64,000 nt of DNA from contig NZ_RBCI01000008.1 in the NCBI RefSeq assembly GCF_003628535.1, forward strand, positions 62,001-126,000, read 5' to 3'. Both the position numbers and the translations under genes were made by a program. This DNA is from Flavisolibacter nicotianae (lineage in GTDB: Bacteria; Bacteroidota; Bacteroidia; Chitinophagales; Chitinophagaceae). Of the stretch, positions 6,731-33,825 are shown one piece after another. How positions within the stretch are numbered: position 1 is the first letter of the stretch; every line of letters begins with the position of its first letter. The notes below the pieces were generated by a model. It did not search any database. It was given only the letters and a program-made list of their open reading frames with translations, and was not told the DNA's origin.

Positions 6731-7654
6731 TTAAACAATCGACTGGATCAACCCCTTTAGTTTTGTGGCCGACTTTTTCAGCAGTTCTTCTTCCTGTTCG
6801 CTGATGGACAGGGGCAGAACCTCGCGGATTCCCGACCGGTCTACCACGCAGGGAATCCCGAGGTACACGTCGCTGATTCCATGGTAGTCGTTCAATAAAG
6901 TGGAAACGTTGAGCACGGCAGCTTCGTTGCGCAAAATGGCTGTGCAGATGCGGTCCAGTGCAAGCGCAATGGCATAATAGGTAGCGCCTTTCGCATTGAT
7001 GATCTTGTAGGCGGCATCCCGGGTGTTTGCAAAGATTTCCGCCTTGTCTTCTTCGCTCAGCGACAGCTCCGTACCGGCTACGTTGGCCAGGCTCCAGAGA
7101 GGCAGTTCCGAATCGCCGTGCTCGCCAATGATGTGCGCATGGATGCTCCGAGAATCGATGTTCAGTTTTTCGCCAATGAGATAACGAAAGCGTGAACTGT
7201 CGAGCAGGGTGCCCGACCCGATCACCCGGCGTGCAGGCCAGCCCGATTTTTTCCAGGTGAAATAACTCATGATGTCAACCGGGTTGCTGGCGATGAGCAG
7301 GATGCCGTCCTGGTTGTGTTTCAGCATTTCGGTGGTGATGCTTTCAAAAATGGCCACGTTGCGTTTGAGAAGGTCTACCCTTGTTTCGCCAGGACGCTGG
7401 GCTGCTCCCGCCGTGATGATGATAATGTCGGCCTCGCGGCAGTCTTCGTAGGTGCCGGCCCAAACACTGGCCGCGCCCAGCAGCGGCAGTCCATGGTTCA
7501 TGTCGAGTGCGTCGCCAACGGCTTTTGCTTTGTTTGCGTCAATGAGCACCAGTTCATCCACGCGGTTGCGAAGCAGGAGGGTGTAAGCCGTTGTGGATCC
7601 AACGGCACCTACGCCGATAATGACGATCCGTGTTTTTTTGGTTGTTGCAGACAT
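6731..7654 (-). CDS. ldh: L-lactate dehydrogenase
   Basis: A 307-residue NAD-dependent enzyme that interconverts pyruvate and L-lactate in the cytoplasm. The Rossmann motif GVGAVG spans residues 14-19. The substrate loop reads AGAAQRPGETRVDL; glutamine rather than arginine at the specificity position marks lactate and not malate dehydrogenase. The catalytic histidine lies in HIIGEHGDSE. The open frame extends about 100 codons upstream, but the family always starts close to the Rossmann strand, so I use the ATG at 7654. It stands alone between a small gene and the SusC operon. Confidence 0.9.
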   Translation of the reverse strand: MSATTKKTRIVIIGVGAVGSTTAYTLLLRNRVDELVLIDANKAKAVGDALDMNHGLPLLGAASVWAGTYEDCREADIIIITAGAAQRPGETRVDLLKRNVAIFESITTEMLKHNQDGILLIASNPVDIMSYFTWKKSGWPARRVIGSGTLLDSSRFRYLIGEKLNIDSRSIHAHIIGEHGDSELPLWSLANVAGTELSLSEEDKAEIFANTRDAAYKIINAKGATYYAIALALDRICTAILRNEAAVLNVSTLLNDYHGISDVYLGIPCVVDRSGIREVLPLSISEQEEELLKKSATKLKGLIQSIV

Positions 7655-25854: not shown

Positions 25855-27864
25855 TTAGTTGACATAGATCCTGTCGTCGAGCGGTTCGGCCGTTTCCGAC
25901 ACCGCTTTTTCATCCGGTACGCCAATTTCCTGTTGCACGAAATACATGTCGATCTCACCCACGTTCTTCGCATACAGTTTGCCGCGGTGTGTGCAGACGT
26001 ATTTTTCTTTCACCAGTTCGTAAGTAGCTGCGGAAATGTTGATCTTTCCCGGCTCACCGTTGCTTTCCATGCGGCTGGCAATGTTCACCGTGTTGCCCCA
26101 GATGTCGTACGCATATTTTTTCTTGCCTACCACGCCGGCTACCACCGGGCCAACGTGGATGCCGATCCGCATCTCGAGCGGCTCATGGCCCTCGTCCTTT
26201 CTCCGCTGGTTAAAGGTTTTCATGTAAGCCTGTATTTCCATTGCCGCCTGCACAATGCGGAAGGGATGACTGATATCGGCCGTGGGAATGCCACCGGCAC
26301 ACATGTAAGCGTCGCCAATGGTTTTGATCTTCTCGAGTTTGTTTTTTTCAATGATGTTGTCGAAAGCCACGAAGCAGATGTTCAGTTCTTTCACCAGTTC
26401 TTCGGGAGTCATTTTTTCGGCAATCATGGTGAAGTTGCGAAAGTCGCTGAACAGCACGGAGACCCTTTCGTAGCTGCGGGGTTTGGCATGGCCGTAGTCC
26501 TGCAGTTCTTTTACCACTTCGGCCGGCAGGATGTTGTTGAGCAGGGTGTGAATTTGTACCCGCTGCCGGTCGAGCACCTTGTTGATTTTTTCTTTGTGCC
26601 GGTACCCCCGGAAAATAATGAAGGCGATGAGGCAGAGAAGCACCACGCCGATAGCGAAGGCTGTCTTGGCCTGCCGCTCTTTTTGCACCTGTACTTCACC
26701 GAGCTTTTTTTCGTTGGTCAACAGCTTGATCTGGTCTTCTTTTTTTGACAACTCGAAATCAAAATTCAGCAGGCCCAGTTTCTTCAGGCTTTCGGTATTG
26801 TACAGCGTATCCTTGATCCCGGCATACTTCGACTGGTAGAGATAGGCGTTCCGGTAATCCGCGGTTTTCGAATAGGCGAGGGAAAGGTTTTGGTAAATGT
26901 CCCGCAGGTCCACCTTGGTGCCCAGTTCCTGCGCTCTTGCTTCGGCCCGTTGAAGATAGGTGAGGGCCGAGCCATAATTTCCTTCCTGCAACTGGACGTT
27001 CGCAATTCCCTGCCAGGCCCGCATTTGCTGCGACTGGTCGCCGACTTTTTCCGAAAGAAGAAGGGCTTTTTGGTGGTTGTGGAGAGCGGCGTCGTAGGCT
27101 TTTTTTCGCAGGTAAATCTTGCCAAGGCCGTTATAGGCAAAGGCCACCTGTGCGGAGGAACTGTCGGCGACAATGGCTTCTTTGTAATAAGGCAGGGCCT
27201 TGTCGTCCTGCTGTTCGTCGTAATAGATCTCGCCAAGGTTGCTTAGTACGATGGAGTTGGTGCGCTGGTCACCCTTGGCTTTACTCAGCGGCAGGGCTTT
27301 CAGCAGGTAATCGAGTGCCTTGGGGTCGCGGGTATTGTGGTAAATACTGGCGGCCGTGACCAGCGAAGAAATGATCCGCGTGGTGTCTTTGGTCTTTTCG
27401 GCCAGCTTCAGGGCCTGCAGGCAAAAATCCAGCGCCTTCACGTCGTCACCGCGGTCTTTGTACACCGCACTGATGTTGTTCAGCAGGTTGGAGATCCCCA
27501 CATCATCGTTCATGCGCCGAAAGATGGCCAGCGACTGGTGCCAGTAATTCAGCGCCATGTCGTATTTCTGCTGGTAGTAATAGCCGATGCCGATGTTTTT
27601 CAGCGCAACCGCTTCCCCTTTCTGGAAGTGTAGCTTTGCCGCCAGGCGTTGCGCCTCGCGGGAAACGTCGATGGCTTTGACAGGATCCTCGCCAAACAGT
27701 GATTTGCTTTTCTCCAACAGGTGGTTGACCGTTGCGGTATCTTCCCGAGAGGCGGTTTGTGCGGCCGCCGTGATACAGAAAAACAACACCAGCACCAGCA
27801 GGCAGGATAGACGTTTCAGCATCACCAACGATTTCCCTCCAACGAAACGTTTACGTGTCGCCAT
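25855..27864 (-). CDS. TPR-domain class III adenylate cyclase
   Basis: A 669-residue membrane protein. A signal peptide (MLKRLSCLLVLVLFFCITAAAQ, residues 15-36; ATG at 27822 is an alternative start) is followed by about eight TPR-like repeats in the periplasm, one membrane helix near residues 400-422 and a cytoplasmic class III cyclase domain from about 465. Metal-binding aspartates are D474 (SVLFSDFRNFT) and D518 (KTIGDAYM). The adenine-selecting lysine K514 and D587 (YDIWG), and the transition-state N594 and R598 (NIASR), are all present, so it should make cAMP. It lies between a giant secreted protein (69 nt upstream) and the HD-YitT gene. Confidence 0.9.
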   Translation of the reverse strand: MATRKRFVGGKSLVMLKRLSCLLVLVLFFCITAAAQTASREDTATVNHLLEKSKSLFGEDPVKAIDVSREAQRLAAKLHFQKGEAVALKNIGIGYYYQQKYDMALNYWHQSLAIFRRMNDDVGISNLLNNISAVYKDRGDDVKALDFCLQALKLAEKTKDTTRIISSLVTAASIYHNTRDPKALDYLLKALPLSKAKGDQRTNSIVLSNLGEIYYDEQQDDKALPYYKEAIVADSSSAQVAFAYNGLGKIYLRKKAYDAALHNHQKALLLSEKVGDQSQQMRAWQGIANVQLQEGNYGSALTYLQRAEARAQELGTKVDLRDIYQNLSLAYSKTADYRNAYLYQSKYAGIKDTLYNTESLKKLGLLNFDFELSKKEDQIKLLTNEKKLGEVQVQKERQAKTAFAIGVVLLCLIAFIIFRGYRHKEKINKVLDRQRVQIHTLLNNILPAEVVKELQDYGHAKPRSYERVSVLFSDFRNFTMIAEKMTPEELVKELNICFVAFDNIIEKNKLEKIKTIGDAYMCAGGIPTADISHPFRIVQAAMEIQAYMKTFNQRRKDEGHEPLEMRIGIHVGPVVAGVVGKKKYAYDIWGNTVNIASRMESNGEPGKINISAATYELVKEKYVCTHRGKLYAKNVGEIDMYFVQQEIGVPDEKAVSETAEPLDDRIYVN

Positions 27865-27933: not shown

Positions 27934-30900
27934 TTAGAGTTTGGTAAAGCGCAAGGTGCGGTAGCCTTCGGCTGTTTTTACCCGGACGAGGTAGATGCCC
28001 GGCGACAATGAAGTTACCGATATTTCCAGCGTCTTTTCATCAATCCTTTGCGCAGCCAGTCCTGCATACCGTCGTCCCGTGGCATCTACCACCATAAAAT
28101 CCTTTTCCGATTCAATGCTGACCGTTGCATGAACCCTTACCCTGTCGTGTGCCGGGTTGGGGTAAACAGAGGTGGCGACAGCCGTTGTTTCAACTTCCGG
28201 CGCTCCCACTGCCTGCTTCTGCGTGATGACGGTTGACTGGCATCGTGGTGAGTTGGCATTTACGTCGCTGGTAACGGCCGTTTTGTGGTTGGATTCCAGG
28301 GAGCGTAAATTCCAGGACATCGGTTGACCGTTGAACAGGATCTGCACTTCGTGTACGCCGGGTTCAAATACTTCCGGCAACGTGTTTCGGTAGAAGCTTC
28401 CCGGTGCACTGGAAATGTAGTTGTCCGGTCCTCGCGGAATGTACACCGGTGTTTCGTTGCGGTTGTTGTAGCTGAACACGACCACGTAACGGTAGCCATA
28501 TAGTGCCACTTCGGCTGCACTGAGTGCCCGCACGCATTCTGTTTTGACCAGGATCTTTTTCGCGCCATTGCCATACGGGTTCACGTACAGGCGACCGGTA
28601 TCCATGATCAGGGGCCTGTAATTGGCCAGGACAAGACCATTGACACTAGGCTGGATGATATACATGCCGGGCTGGCCGTTATACACCGGCGACAGGCTGT
28701 ACGTAATGCCCGTTACAATGCCTGGCGGATCGTTGTAAGCCAAACCTGTGATGGTCGATGTAAAGAACGATTGCGGCGGCGTCGGATCGCCCTGGTTGAT
28801 GAATTTCCAGTCGGCATCAACTGTTAGCGGTGCCGGCAAAATGGTGATATCGGCCGTGCCGTAGGTGATGTCGAAATTTGGATCGAACAGGGCACCGGGA
28901 ACCAGTTTTTGTACACCTGCATTCAGCCCGGTAATCATGTTCACGGAGAACAGGCCGCCAATGGCGCCCTGCTGCAGCAGCAGGTCATCCCGGTCGATGA
29001 CAAGAGCCGCGTTGGAATTGTTGGTGGCGCTGATTCCGCCGATATTGTTGACAAGGGCCTGCAACTGTCCATTCACAAGTGCCTGCAACTGCCCGTTGAC
29101 CAATGTGTACGATTCGCCATTGACCATGGCTTGCAGTTGCCCGTTCGTGATGGTGTAGCTTTCCACCGGCTGAACGGTGCCGTTCACCACCGCCATTAAC
29201 TGTCCGTTGACCAAAGCCTGCAACTGCCCGTTCACAAGAGCCTGCAACTGGCCATTGACCAGTTCTGCAAAGGTGAACCGTCCATTTACGACAGCCATCA
29301 ATTGCCCATTCACTATGCTGAGTAGCTGCCCGTTGACTAGCGCCAGCAACTGGCCATTGACAAGGGCCTGTAACTGCCCGTTCACCACGGCCTGCAATTG
29401 CCCGTTTTCAAGGACGGCATAATCAACGACGGTCAGCTCTCCGTTTACCAATGCCAGCAGTTGTCCGTTGACGATGGCCTGTAATTGCCCATTGACAAGA
29501 GCCTGCAACTGGCCGTTCACGACCGGCATTAGCTGGCCGTTGACGGCAGCCTGCAATTGTCCGTTGACAAGCGCCAGTAATTGTCCGTTGACAATGGCTT
29601 GCAGTTGGCCGTTCACCAATGCCATCAACTGGCCATTGACGATAGCCTGCAACTGCCCGTTCTGCATGCTCAGGTCAACCGTCACGGCTACACCATTGAC
29701 GACTGCCTGGATTTGTCCGTTGGTGACGGGCACCCACACGCCGTTCACCATGGCCATCAACTGGCCGTTAAGAACCGTAAAGTCTTCGGCTGGCTGCCAG
29801 ACACCGTTCACCAGTGCCTGCAGTTGCCCGTTCACAATGGCTTGCAATTGTCCATTCACCATACTGAGTAATTGCCCATTGATCAGTGTTTTTGTCTGTC
29901 CGCCCGGCGGTGTGGCCTGGGCAGTACCATTCGCCAGTGCCCGCATACTCACAAGCCCTCTCAGTTTGTTTTCGGGTGGTGTGGGCAGAAGTTGGATATG
30001 TGCGGAATCCGTTTTGTAGGCGGCCAGCGATTCAGCCGAAAGATCAACCAGGAAACGTTGGTTTTTCGCATCGGCGGAAGAAACCAGTCCGGTAATGGGA
30101 ACCAGTTGCCCGTTTCGAACAAGGTATTTCCGTGCATTCCTAACCGACTGGAAGCTGGCCAGCGTGCCCATGTTTTTGAGTGCGGCTACTTCGTCTGCTG
30201 GTGGCGGGACCGCCAGGCCGTTGACCACGGCCAGTGTATTGCCGGACAGGTATTTCAAATACCTGGCTTTTAAAGATTCAACCACCGTGTTATCAATCAG
30301 GCGGCCACCAAAATCGAAGTCGTAGGCAATACCTCCTACGTATTCGCCATAGGTGACCGTCTGGTTACGTGGCATGATTTTCACCGGCAGTTTTTGCACG
30401 GTGAGTGTGCCGGCCTGGAACACGAAATCGTATTTGGCGAGCAGCGCCGCGTCGGTAGGGTTCGAAGGGTCAAGTGGTGTGGTGCGGGAAGGCGTGATGC
30501 TGTAGTTGGCGGCATTGCTGGTGGCGGTGGCAAAGGTTTCGTAATGGATGTTGGTGCCGTCGAGTTTGAGGCTGGCAAGGGTTTCGGTGGTGGTGCTCAG
30601 CGGCTGCCCGTCGATGGTCACTGTTGCCGTAAATTCCGGCAAAGCTTCGCCGAAGGTTTTTGTTTTGTTATCCGCCTTAACCAAAACGGTCTTCCTGCTG
30701 CTAAACAGGTGCAGGGCGTCCGAAAAACCGCCATCCAGCCCGCTCAGGCTTTTCGGCGGATTGTAAAGCTGGATGGCCGGATCGTCTGCTACCGAACCGG
30801 TAATGTGTGCGGCGACTTCCTGGTTGTTGACAAAAGCAGTGGGTACCTCTGCGCCCCGCACATACACCTTTGTGGTCGGAATCAAATACAGGCCCCTGAC

Positions 30901-33825
30901 GCGGAGTGTAAAGTCGACGTTTGTTGAAGGCGTTAAATCCGGTGGGGCGATCAGGCTGCTGATGACCGGCCGTGCATTGGCAATGGTGAGCATGGCTTCA
31001 TCGGCGCGAATGGCACCATAGCCGCTCTTGAAGTCAAACCCCGGTTCGTGCAGGTCCAGTGCTGTCGTTTGCAGTAGCTCCTTTACTTCTGCCGGTGCCA
31101 CCGCAGGCTGGAGGTTGAATTTCTTTTTACCCTCGATGAGCAGGGCTGCAGCACCGGCGGCGTGCGGTGCCGCGGCCGATGTGCCAAAGAAGTTCGGGAA
31201 GGGGTCGCCTTCGATATTGGTGACAGGATCGGTGTTGATGGTAACGGTTGTATTCACGCCATTGGGCGCCACCACGTTGGGTTTTCTCCGGACAGTTCCT
31301 TCCACCTCAGTTCCACCGCGGGAAGAGAACGAGGCCACGCTGGGGTAATCCGGAACGATGTTGTTGACGTTGTCGTACAGCATGGCACCAACCGAAATGG
31401 CACTTTCCGCATTGGCCTGGCCAACGATCGTTGACGAACCCGGATAACCTGCAATGGAAGCGTCGCCGCGGAAAACAATGTACTTGAACCTGACGTTGGT
31501 GGCACCCGTGGCGCTGACGATCAGCAGGTCGGCATCCGTTTCTTCGTTGACATTGAAGGGCAATACTTCAAACGGGTCGGCGGTGCGGCTGTCACGGTTA
31601 AAACCAAAATAGCTGCCATCGGGTTTGACAAGGTAAATATCAAGGTCCACCAGGGCGCCCGGGTCTTCGCCCAGCGAATAAAAATTGTCGTCCCACTGCA
31701 ATACAATCGTGTAAATCCCTTTTTTCAGGTGAATCGTTTGCCGGATGCCGTCGCCGAAGTTGTGAGGGACGCCAGTGATACCGGCCGGTAATGCTGTTGC
31801 GTCGCCCGGCGAGAAAGTTCCTTCAAACGAACGGCTGCCAAAGTTGCCTGCGGAGGTAATGTAGGTCACTTTGTTGTTCACCACCACATCATTGACCGCC
31901 TGTGCAATCAAGCCATCTTTCAGGAAAGGCTCCGTGATGTAGGTGATATCGTCAACCAGCACATTGGCGCTCCTTGGCGGCAATGCCAGTTCTTTAATGC
32001 CCAGCGAAAAATCGAGCGGGCTGAGGATGCCGGTGCGGAACAAAAGCTTGGCCTTCGGCGCCACGTCATGAACAATTTGCACCATGGCCCTTCCTTCGTC
32101 GGAGCGGGGCGGGTCGGGAAACTCCCTTACCACGGTAAGATCGGCAGGCACATCGCCTTCCTGCTTGTCGTGATCCGCTTCCTGCTTGGTGTCGTAGCTA
32201 TCCGAGAAAACGCCGACTGTCACACCATTGCCTTCAATCCCCCATTGGGAACGTACAAAATTTGCCTTCATGGTCAGGTCGCCCTGTGTCGTTACCTGGC
32301 CAACGTTATTAATCGGTTCAAACAGGGGGCGTACATAATCAATGTCATCGCGGAGGTTCAGCAGGTTCAGCTTCGCAATCGGGAACTTGCCGGTGAGCAC
32401 CCGGTGTGTCGATAAGGTCGACACCGAGTCGAAGCCCTCGCTTTTCAGGTAGTTGAACAGCGTGTTGTAAACGGACGGCTCGGTCGATTTTGCAACGACT
32501 TCGATCCAGACCTTCTGCGTCGCCTGGTCGATCCGGAAAATGATGTTGTCGGGAACTGTCGTGATGATGTCAGGGTTTTGGTTCAGTGATGTCAGTTCCG
32601 ATCCGATCTTGTTGGTCACTTTTCCGCCGGGCGGAGGTGGATAGTAGGGATCGATGACGACAGGAGTAAAATTGAGCGGTTGGTAGTTGATCCTGGCAGC
32701 GTCGCCCACTATGATCTTTGTTTTGCTCCAGAAAGCGCCGTATACCTCCGCATAATTACCTTCCAGTGCATTCGGCGTACCGATGGCAATGCTGCCATTG
32801 GGCGCATAGACGGTACCGGCCCAAAAAGCGCTGATCTCTGCACCGCGGGTGGTATCCCTGATGCGAAACGCATTCCCACCGGGAACGGTGCTGCCATTTC
32901 CGTGCACTTCCAGGTAAACCCGCGAGGCTTCGGGATAGTACCCGTTGTTGGGAAAATTGCTGCCGACGATCATGTCGGTGGGACCCAGGTCAACGTCCTG
33001 GTGCACATAGATCCGGTAGCTTTCTTCACTGGATGGCGGAATGTCAAAGCTGATCGTATTTCTCCCGCTGGTGCGGATGGATCGGAACACATAAATACCC
33101 GGCGTGGTAAAAACAACCCTTCCATTCCCGGTTAGCACCAGGTCGCCATAAGCACCGGGCACAATCGAGTCGCCATCGACGACATTTTTGCTGGTGAAGG
33201 GTGGAAACGTTGTTTGAAACGGCAGGGAGGGTAAAATCGGAAGGGGAAGTGTATCCAAAAACTGCACGGGGCCGAACGTGGGGACGGGACCGAGGTAGGT
33301 GTAGGGCTTCTGAAGATAAACCGGTCCGTCAACAAGATCACCCGTGTCAAAAACCACGTGTCCTCTTGCCTGAACCAGGCCGCCTTGTGGCGGGTCCTGC
33401 AGGCTGTTGAACGGATCGTATGTCGTTACCGTGTTTAGTGGAGCATTGATCACAGGGAAATTGACGAAGGCATCGTTACGGGCCACCAGGTTGCCCCCAA
33501 TGGTGTTGCCACCGGCCGTCATGTTGATCCGGTTGCCGCTGTAGATATCGGTAACAAGATCGTTGTGGTTGCCAACGGTCACCAGAAAATTACTGCCAAT
33601 AATGGTTCGCAACTCCTGGCTTCTGGAGATGCTGCTGTTGGCCGACAGTTGCAAACCGTAGCGGACCGAATCGTTCATGCCGCGGTGGGTGCCATCGGCA
33701 AAAAGCACGTACTGGGAAATGGTGGTAGTGTCGGAAATCGGGCGGGGCAAGGTTTGTGCAAAAACAGTCGTCGTAAAACACAGCCATAAAAGAATCGATA
33801 AAGAAGTGCGCAGTTGGTTAGGCAT
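27934..33825 (-). CDS. Giant T9SS-secreted subtilase-like protein with MBG domains and VNGQLQAL repeats
   Basis: A 1,963-residue secreted protein. Signal peptide about 1-24. Residues 70-400 look like a beta-helical anchor-type region (GGNTIGGNLVARND; GSIAIGTPNALEGNYAEVYGAFW). A subtilase (S8) domain follows: D542 (GVFSDSYD), oxyanion asparagine N661 (TSAGNFG) and S883 (GTSAAAPHAAG); where HGTH is expected there is DEGRAM at 576-581. An MBG-like domain covers about 1045-1145; a second starts near 1148 (TVTYGEYVGG) and seems to end near 1655 (FDITYGTADITILPA), with an insertion that contains about 32 NG units of the type VNGQLQAL (1314-1592). A third MBG-like unit lies at about 1660-1740. The C-terminus (about 1885-1963, SVYPNPAHDRV to GIYLVRVKTAEGYRTLRFTKL) is a type A T9SS sorting domain. 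First of three same-strand genes ahead of the cyclase. Confidence 0.88.
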   Translation of the reverse strand: MPNQLRTSLSILLWLCFTTTVFAQTLPRPISDTTTISQYVLFADGTHRGMNDSVRYGLQLSANSSISRSQELRTIIGSNFLVTVGNHNDLVTDIYSGNRINMTAGGNTIGGNLVARNDAFVNFPVINAPLNTVTTYDPFNSLQDPPQGGLVQARGHVVFDTGDLVDGPVYLQKPYTYLGPVPTFGPVQFLDTLPLPILPSLPFQTTFPPFTSKNVVDGDSIVPGAYGDLVLTGNGRVVFTTPGIYVFRSIRTSGRNTISFDIPPSSEESYRIYVHQDVDLGPTDMIVGSNFPNNGYYPEASRVYLEVHGNGSTVPGGNAFRIRDTTRGAEISAFWAGTVYAPNGSIAIGTPNALEGNYAEVYGAFWSKTKIIVGDAARINYQPLNFTPVVIDPYYPPPPGGKVTNKIGSELTSLNQNPDIITTVPDNIIFRIDQATQKVWIEVVAKSTEPSVYNTLFNYLKSEGFDSVSTLSTHRVLTGKFPIAKLNLLNLRDDIDYVRPLFEPINNVGQVTTQGDLTMKANFVRSQWGIEGNGVTVGVFSDSYDTKQEADHDKQEGDVPADLTVVREFPDPPRSDEGRAMVQIVHDVAPKAKLLFRTGILSPLDFSLGIKELALPPRSANVLVDDITYITEPFLKDGLIAQAVNDVVVNNKVTYITSAGNFGSRSFEGTFSPGDATALPAGITGVPHNFGDGIRQTIHLKKGIYTIVLQWDDNFYSLGEDPGALVDLDIYLVKPDGSYFGFNRDSRTADPFEVLPFNVNEETDADLLIVSATGATNVRFKYIVFRGDASIAGYPGSSTIVGQANAESAISVGAMLYDNVNNIVPDYPSVASFSSRGGTEVEGTVRRKPNVVAPNGVNTTVTINTDPVTNIEGDPFPNFFGTSAAAPHAAGAAALLIEGKKKFNLQPAVAPAEVKELLQTTALDLHEPGFDFKSGYGAIRADEAMLTIANARPVISSLIAPPDLTPSTNVDFTLRVRGLYLIPTTKVYVRGAEVPTAFVNNQEVAAHITGSVADDPAIQLYNPPKSLSGLDGGFSDALHLFSSRKTVLVKADNKTKTFGEALPEFTATVTIDGQPLSTTTETLASLKLDGTNIHYETFATATSNAANYSITPSRTTPLDPSNPTDAALLAKYDFVFQAGTLTVQKLPVKIMPRNQTVTYGEYVGGIAYDFDFGGRLIDNTVVESLKARYLKYLSGNTLAVVNGLAVPPPADEVAALKNMGTLASFQSVRNARKYLVRNGQLVPITGLVSSADAKNQRFLVDLSAESLAAYKTDSAHIQLLPTPPENKLRGLVSMRALANGTAQATPPGGQTKTLINGQLLSMVNGQLQAIVNGQLQALVNGVWQPAEDFTVLNGQLMAMVNGVWVPVTNGQIQAVVNGVAVTVDLSMQNGQLQAIVNGQLMALVNGQLQAIVNGQLLALVNGQLQAAVNGQLMPVVNGQLQALVNGQLQAIVNGQLLALVNGELTVVDYAVLENGQLQAVVNGQLQALVNGQLLALVNGQLLSIVNGQLMAVVNGRFTFAELVNGQLQALVNGQLQALVNGQLMAVVNGTVQPVESYTITNGQLQAMVNGESYTLVNGQLQALVNGQLQALVNNIGGISATNNSNAALVIDRDDLLLQQGAIGGLFSVNMITGLNAGVQKLVPGALFDPNFDITYGTADITILPAPLTVDADWKFINQGDPTPPQSFFTSTITGLAYNDPPGIVTGITYSLSPVYNGQPGMYIIQPSVNGLVLANYRPLIMDTGRLYVNPYGNGAKKILVKTECVRALSAAEVALYGYRYVVVFSYNNRNETPVYIPRGPDNYISSAPGSFYRNTLPEVFEPGVHEVQILFNGQPMSWNLRSLESNHKTAVTSDVNANSPRCQSTVITQKQAVGAPEVETTAVATSVYPNPAHDRVRVHATVSIESEKDFMVVDATGRRYAGLAAQRIDEKTLEISVTSLSPGIYLVRVKTAEGYRTLRFTKL
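29050..29886 (-). repeat. 24-nt tandem repeat tract coding VNGQLQAL octapeptides
   Basis: An 837-nt in-frame tract inside the giant subtilase gene (residues 1314-1592). The unit is (V/L/T/E/Q)NGQL(Q/M/L)(A/S/P)(L/I/V/M/A), about 24 regular octads, broken by six or so longer or divergent units such as VNGVWQPAEDFTV, VNGVAVTVDLSM, VNGELTVVDYAVL, VNGRFTFAEL and VNGTVQPVESYTI. Codons differ between copies at third positions. Confidence 0.95.

Follow-up and report, generated by a model that had tools for sequence, protein, structure and literature searches.

Introduction

The RRNPP systems, in the passages of PMC10075063 that define them, consist of adjacent genes for a secreted propeptide of 10-100 aa and an intracellular TPR receptor of 250-500 aa, and intragenic duplications in propeptides are cited in the same source. 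A locus of comparable layout, with two adjacent genes of which one encodes a secreted protein bearing a short peptide and the other a protein with TPRs, is described here from Flavisolibacter nicotianae, within a stretch of 64,000 nucleotides of contig NZ_RBCI01000008.1 that we refer to as the window. As in RRNPP pairs, the putative receptor contains TPRs (Pfam TPR_12, E 1.4e-34) and the genes are directly adjacent, being 69 bp apart in the window and next to each other in 39 of 46 testable loci. Unlike in those pairs, the precursor has 1963 aa and a T9SS tail, and the receptor has 669 aa, is predicted to be membrane-bound and carries a cyclase, both lengths lying outside the ranges given above.

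Other described systems resemble the partner gene. Its best NCBIfam line is FimS of Porphyromonas, a TPR sensor histidine kinase (residues 182-431, 103 bits), and 2 of 30 neighbor genes match HATPase_c, that of locus L074 among them; however, the score is far below the 600-bit cut-off, and the partner in the window ends in a cyclase. Among the best 60 of 79 PDB matches, the best natural TPR chains for the partner were those of LGN/Pins. TPR grooves of the LGN/Pins and OGT type bind extended peptides; to our knowledge, these systems are eukaryotic and have no repeated ligand tract. We know of no ligand for partner-like sensors, and we found no description of the tract or of the tract-sensor pair in the open-licence PMC literature.

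In this work, we propose that the repeat tract is a lineage-specific, specificity-bearing candidate ligand of the adjacent TPR sensor, a reading of the sequence comparisons whose chances we hold to be about even.

Results and discussion

An octapeptide tract in a giant secreted protein

The 1963-aa ORF (27934..33825, minus strand) encodes, according to the ORF list, Pfam and NCBIfam, an N-terminal signal-like stretch recognized by eye, a subtilase-like domain, an MBG domain, the octad tract and a T9SS sorting tail. The Peptidase_S8 match covers residues 758-937 (31015..31554, minus; Pfam, E 2.7e-19), and MBG_2 (PF18676) covers residues 1049-1142 upstream of the tract (30400..30681, minus; E 6.3e-11); by eye only, a second MBG domain appears to be split by the octads. 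The tract itself, residues 1315-1591 of the unit table (29053..29883, minus), is placed between the MBG domain and the T9SS tail, and it is followed by a conserved flank starting with VNMITGL (residues 1608-1673; 28807..29004, minus) and by the C-terminal sorting domain (residues 1887-1954; 27964..28167, minus; PF18962 E 1.3e-8, TIGR04183 E 3.2e-11). By these profile matches, the protein carries both an MBG domain and a C-terminal T9SS sorting domain.

The original prediction had described a tract of about 32 NG-containing units, most of them octads, in a giant secreted protein, and the unit count bore this out over the same span. Splitting at NG gave 33 units from residue 1298, the first of which, of 17 aa, precedes the octads; residue 1315 opens a series of 32 NG units, 26 of them with exactly 8 residues to the next NG, five of 10-13 aa, and a last one consisting of an octad plus tail, which brings the octads to 27. 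When the tract with 60 residues on each side was matched to itself, the share of agreeing positions was highest at lags 8, 16 and 24 (39%, 33% and 24%, respectively), against 14% at the next best lag, and Tandem Repeats Finder recovered periods of 24, 48, 72 and 96 bp in the tract DNA with merely 65-78% DNA matches. The same genome holds a 1952-aa paralog (L009, contig C35, 1257..7115, minus) with the tract in register and no neighboring sensor; the two tracts were aligned over 266 residues with 1 gap column. Because of this alignment and of the arrays that relatives have at the same site, chance can be excluded as the origin of the tract. That no named repeat family was known for the unit also agreed with the profile searches, in which no curated family rose above chance: the sole Pfam line on the tract with E up to 1 was DUF3568 (E 0.28), and NCBIfam gave no match.

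Two minor features were recorded in this gene. A 183-aa open frame crosses the tract in antisense (29468..30019, plus) and is probably a codon by-product of the repeat. In the subtilase-like domain (window 30946-32238, minus), DEGR takes the place of the HGTH motif of the catalytic His, a correspondence drawn by eye; this was so in 28 of 34 rows, the other six being partial ORFs. Its GTSA serine motif is kept in relatives, with none found by the pattern in L092.

Relatives and lineage-specific units

Relatives were sought with the flank after the tract (residues 1608-1673), which has a match in 30 of the 294 genomes from this family, that of the window among them; two further loci, both from Segetibacter, came from a named collection. 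In the phylum search the flank was present in 8 of 395 genomes, six of them beyond the family, and of those G264 and G318 gave the tract relatives L113 and L114. Two other families were then represented by 6 of 151 genomes (f3, G264 again) and 8 of 120 genomes (f2, G318 again). Altogether 48 tract loci were read, counting the window and its paralog: 33 in a first set, then L113 and L114, then 13 of 14 held-out loci.

A short-unit array stands at the same site in 48 of 48 loci, in degenerate form in some (L080, L081, L090), and its unit differs by lineage, with periods of 5-8 residues at one site. Octad units include NGQLQALV (the window and L031), NGQTLTLS, NGTLVQLV, GGVPVAIV, NGQAVTIV and NGKAVTIV; hexad units include NSRAIV, NGYALV, NAHAIV, NGKAAV, SLRGIV and NGLSLV, the last of these counted as LSLVN 43 times in L133. 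Other periods are those of NGGVTRA (7, in L078) and LSLAN (5, in L127, assigned by eye). Under the genus label of the window itself, two species have GVPVAIV and SRALV units (G104, G608).

Several matches were discarded. L115-L120 and L126, which matched the flank model partially and had no tract, were set aside as generic MBG, a judgment made from partial reading for L115, L119 and L126 and from k-mer lines only for L116-L118 and L120; the match in G268 was a DNA minisatellite with stops. There was no match among viral contigs, and the plasmid search returned 16 records, all with less than 60% identity among the matches listed (best 10 of 16). In Segetibacter aerophilus (L010, about 7000-7260) a frame change right after the tract yields two ORFs, which may be real or an assembly error.

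Codon usage and selection on the peptide

Codon agreement between identical units, observed over that expected from gene usage, was.47/.44 in the window (546 comparisons),.41/.39 in L092,.35/.45 in L076 and.55/.40 in L091. In 23 of 31 codon rows, a set without L081 (unsuitable k-mer), L010 and L032 (same gene), the pS amounted to 90% of the null or more. For instance, the 16 GYALVN units of L092 are identical peptides written in 16 different DNA sequences (pS.807, null.830), the eight AHAIVN copies of L076 are all identical as peptides and all different as DNA, and the 16 copies of L093 have 14 DNA forms (pS.610, null.609). Identical peptides with near-random codons in many loci indicate that selection keeps the peptide, and arrays of this kind are a clean natural case in which peptide copies are selected to be identical while their codons drift near randomness.

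Comparisons between loci gave a related picture. In 10 of the 11 valid pairs, identity in the tract exceeded that elsewhere in the protein (.93 vs.59 in L091/L093;.71 vs.58 in the window and L009), the reverse being found in L092/L075, whose units differ; these values are inflated, since repeats align easily, and the pair L073/L074 was left out. Six close pairs had 0-9 gap columns in the tract. Against the S8 core, the tract was higher in 8 of 10 pairs with data and lower in L074/L081 and L078/L097.

Recent expansion, at the DNA level, of a neutral satellite in a loop that tolerates it would accord with the variation of unit and array length between lineages, with the 8 of 31 rows whose pS is below 90% of the null (lowest in L078,.562/.753; L011,.664/.864; and L091,.611/.759), and with a codon identity slightly above expectation in most rows. 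Nevertheless, the near-random codons of most loci, the excess of tract identity over the rest of the protein and the scarcity of gaps in close pairs speak against it, and we regard it as highly improbable. The array and its unit are thus maintained by selection within a lineage and differ between lineages. The slight codon excess, together with the heterogeneous arrays of L009 (19 peptides in 22 units) and L073 (10 in 11), also counts against a role of the tract as a ligand.

Fold of the tract

It had been suggested that each octad forms one strand plus turn of a beta-solenoid, and this did not find support: two AlphaFold2 models were unconfident and contradictory. The model of residues 1134-1673, made with two relatives, drew strands between NG turns with a mean pLDDT of 31, and the model of the tract alone was mostly helical with a pLDDT of 51; the solenoid is therefore unproven. 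Because AlphaFold2 is reported to invent solenoids when given perfect repeats (PMC11795689), even a confident solenoid would prove little. One fixed strand-plus-turn geometry is disfavored, given that relatives have periods of 7 (L078) and 5 (L127); an argument for strand plus turn from even periods was dropped once these units were seen.

Similarity searches brought out two known solenoid classes. With phmmer, the octads matched leucine-rich repeat chains in PDB (best E 1.5e-13 and 9.4e-12), and all 10 of 10 matches of the L092 hexad tract, which were weak (E.004-.2), fell on acyltransferase chains and YdcK, which we take to have a beta-helix fold of the left-handed, LpxA type. Since the hexad tract matches a different solenoid class, the leucine-rich repeat matches were set aside as a probable periodicity effect. 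Pfam scans of the window, L092, L113 and L114 that admitted E values up to 1 gave no line for hexapeptide or leucine-rich repeats. The unit of leucine-rich repeats has 20-29 residues and that of the tract has 8; thus the tract departs from this class in both profile and unit length, and the hexads of L092, L113 and L114 depart from the left-handed beta-helix in profile. The tract differs further from both solenoids in that its unit length changes from 5 to 8 between relatives.

A structural beta array of some type (solenoid, left-handed helix or hairpin meander), serving as a stalk or adhesive surface in which the identity of the copies favors stacking, has in its favor the alternation of hydrophobic and turn residues, the strands drawn in the first model, and the PDB matches just described. 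The L114 hexads add to this, being covered over 20 residues by Pam3_gp18, the Pfam profile of a phage baseplate plug (26.3 bits against a cut-off of 24.2), and also lying under LED_rpt (17.9 bits, cut-off 59). On the other hand, the low pLDDT values with contradictory secondary structures, the lack of the Pfam lines named above and the periods of 5, 6, 7 and 8 at one site are difficult to reconcile with it, and it leaves unexplained why the unit follows the TPRs of the neighboring gene (see below); we consider such an array rather unlikely.

The neighboring gene encodes a putative TPR sensor

The partner gene (25855..27864, minus; 669 aa) lies downstream of the tract gene; its product, as assigned by Pfam and hydropathy, has a hydrophobic N-terminus followed by TPR repeats, a predicted membrane helix and a class III nucleotide cyclase. 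The TPR region comprises residues about 36-395 (26680..27759, minus), with seven TPRs assigned by eye; it is followed by the predicted membrane helix, residues about 397-423 (26596..26676, minus; hydropathy), and by the adenylate/guanylate cyclase catalytic domain, residues 463-644 (25933..26478, minus; Pfam, E 4.1e-57). Because it is bracketed by hydrophobic stretches, one N-terminal and one at residues about 397-423, the TPR region is predicted to be periplasmic.

In the first set, the gene immediately downstream, in the same orientation, encoded TPRs in 32 of the 34 loci that could be tested (29 of 30, plus L091, L113 and L114), the exceptions being L092, where a lectin gene intervenes and the sensor lies further on, and the paralog L009. 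In the held-out set the sensor was next in 7 of 12 testable loci (4 of 4 in f3, 3 of 8 in f2); in L129 it is one gene away, with a 206-aa gene between, and L132 was untestable downstream and has a sensor upstream. The loci with no adjacent sensor (L130, L131, L134, L135, L009 and L092) count against the proposed ligand role; L130 has a weaker sensor on the other strand, 2.5 kb off. The genomes G906 and G851, to which L130, L131, L134 and L135 belong, each have two repeat proteins away from a sensor and strong sensor matches elsewhere, two of these in tandem in G906.

The output domain varies among neighbors: 21 of 30 match a cyclase profile, several ORFs being cut by the fetched stretch, the output of the L074 neighbor is a histidine kinase (HATPase_c, HisKA), and the neighbors of L073, L075 and L087 keep the TPR part and have no cyclase similarity there (identity.15-.20). 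With at most 8 candidates scored per genome, 11 of 147 family genomes, own included, had a protein above 480 bits to the partner, and all 11 have a repeat protein; the best genome without one was G011, at 363 bits. Conversely, and against the ligand role, four repeat-protein genomes of the 147 gave no full-length sensor above 480 bits: G045, G063 and G064 with the TPR part only, and G122 at a contig end. Partner-like genes are numerous in these genomes, with at least 8 matches at E 1e-40 in one of them, 8 being the number scored.

Association of the repeat unit with the predicted TPR groove

Unit similarity was correlated with the identity of the neighbor's TPR region (r.56; 27 loci, 299 pairs, kinase types included). 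Given S8, N-terminal and C-terminal identity, the TPR partial r was.49, reached in 0 of 2000 shuffles, and those three regions kept partial values of.08, -.17 and -.01 with the unit; in cyclase types alone the TPR partial value was.58 (22 loci). L092 was absent from these first correlations and from the column means given next; it was added later, represented by the cyclase gene that lies further off, and for want of a GTS motif the limits of its S8 segment were set by rule. The final groove and tree tests used 37 of the 48 loci, leaving out L009, L034, L130, L131, L134, L135 and L132, which have no assigned sensor, and L011, L083, L089 and L090, which have no full S8.

Positions 2, 5, 6, 9, 12 and 13 of a TPR form its ligand face, and these groove columns were fixed before the test. 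Their mean association with the unit was.119 vs.055 in other TPR columns (p 4e-4), and.075 vs.011 once S8 and the remainder of the TPR region were controlled for; no significant groove bias was found with the N-terminal (p.93), C-terminal (p.10) or S8 (p.67) control targets. The groove-unit partial r, given S8 and the rest of the TPR region, was.30 (29 loci, 406 pairs) and.33 in hexads only (23 loci, 253 pairs), each reached in 0 of 1000 label shuffles, which ignore relatedness, and the rest of the TPR region dropped to.19 and.10, respectively. Random column sets reached the groove value in 0 of 1000 draws, and when the register was slid, shift 0 ranked 1 of 34, with the runners-up (-3, +4, +7, +3) on the same helix face. 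In the eight held-out loci with a sensor the direction repeated and the association alone was not significant: the partial r was.19 for new against any locus (reached by 61 of 500 label shuffles; register rank 2 of 34) and.10 for new against new (148 of 500; rank 3 of 34). With all 37 loci it was.28 (0 of 500; rank 1). At groove position 6, the first four TPRs often have Asn, a further resemblance to the LGN/Pins and OGT type.

These comparisons support recognition of the unit by the predicted groove; physical binding, a meeting in the periplasm and signaling are further steps that we infer. Under this proposal, the first gene would encode a secreted protein in which one short peptide is repeated many times, and the second a sensor whose extracytoplasmic TPR groove would recognize that peptide, its cytoplasmic output being a nucleotide cyclase, or a histidine kinase in some relatives. 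The sensor would bind the tract, in an extended conformation, in the periplasm, where the protein is either in transit or retained ahead of its export by T9SS, and would thereby report on the tract-bearing protein; free fragments of it may also serve as signals between cells. That T9SS substrates end outside the cell, with the TPR region predicted in the periplasm, counts against this scheme.

A bolder extension, which we put forward tentatively and with more doubt than confidence, is that of a previously undescribed class of Gram-negative signaling. Each lineage would have its own code, a peptide of 5-8 residues present in many copies in a giant T9SS protein, and a TPR cyclase or kinase in the periplasm would read it in its superhelical groove, binding several units at a time; unit and groove would change together as a cognate module for self-recognition or secretion sensing. 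Such joint change would explain the homogeneity of the peptide without homogenization of the DNA. If the tract is indeed the ligand, that of one sensor family is written in the neighboring gene and can be read from sequence, and the relatives supply ready cognate and non-cognate pairs.

Phylogenetic congruence and possible block inheritance

On the tree of the neighbor's TPR region the octads form one clade (1 change; support 93/84; 37 loci), whereas on the S8 tree of the tract protein itself they need 4 changes and a single clade is rejected (delta lnL 98.8, AU p 6e-60). The cyclase-domain tree (26 rows) also needs 4 changes (AU p.06), and the regions beside the tract are intermediate, the part before it needing 3 changes, the 66-aa flank 2 and the C-terminal part 3; on the last of these, octads as one clade are not rejected (AU p.48). 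Adjacency, co-occurrence and tree congruence thus tie the tract to the sensor in the genomes compared. The octad clade on the TPR tree survived removal of the groove columns; this, with the non-rejection on the C-terminal part, suggests that the link is due in part to co-inheritance: tract, C-terminal part and TPR region may travel as one block, and this by itself could account for some of the association.

Taken to its end, this idea becomes the main rival and dispenses with recognition altogether: tract, C-terminal part and neighboring TPR region would recombine between lineages as one DNA block, and the tract might be, for example, a structural spacer. In the window, 1.3 kb separates the start of the tract from that of the TPR region, and the gradation of changes from TPR region to flank to C-terminal part, with rejection on the upstream S8, is what such linkage would leave, as is a TPR tree that retains the octad clade without its groove columns. 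Yet S8 is equally close to the tract (1.1 kb) and does not follow the unit, C-terminal identity has no partial link to it, and the groove-specific excess persists after control for the rest of the same TPR region. Linkage as the whole explanation therefore seems unlikely to us, though far from negligible, and recognition of the unit by the sensor remains our preferred account. Finally, L113, which belongs to another family, nests among the S8 sequences of the window's family, hinting at horizontal transfer of the operon.
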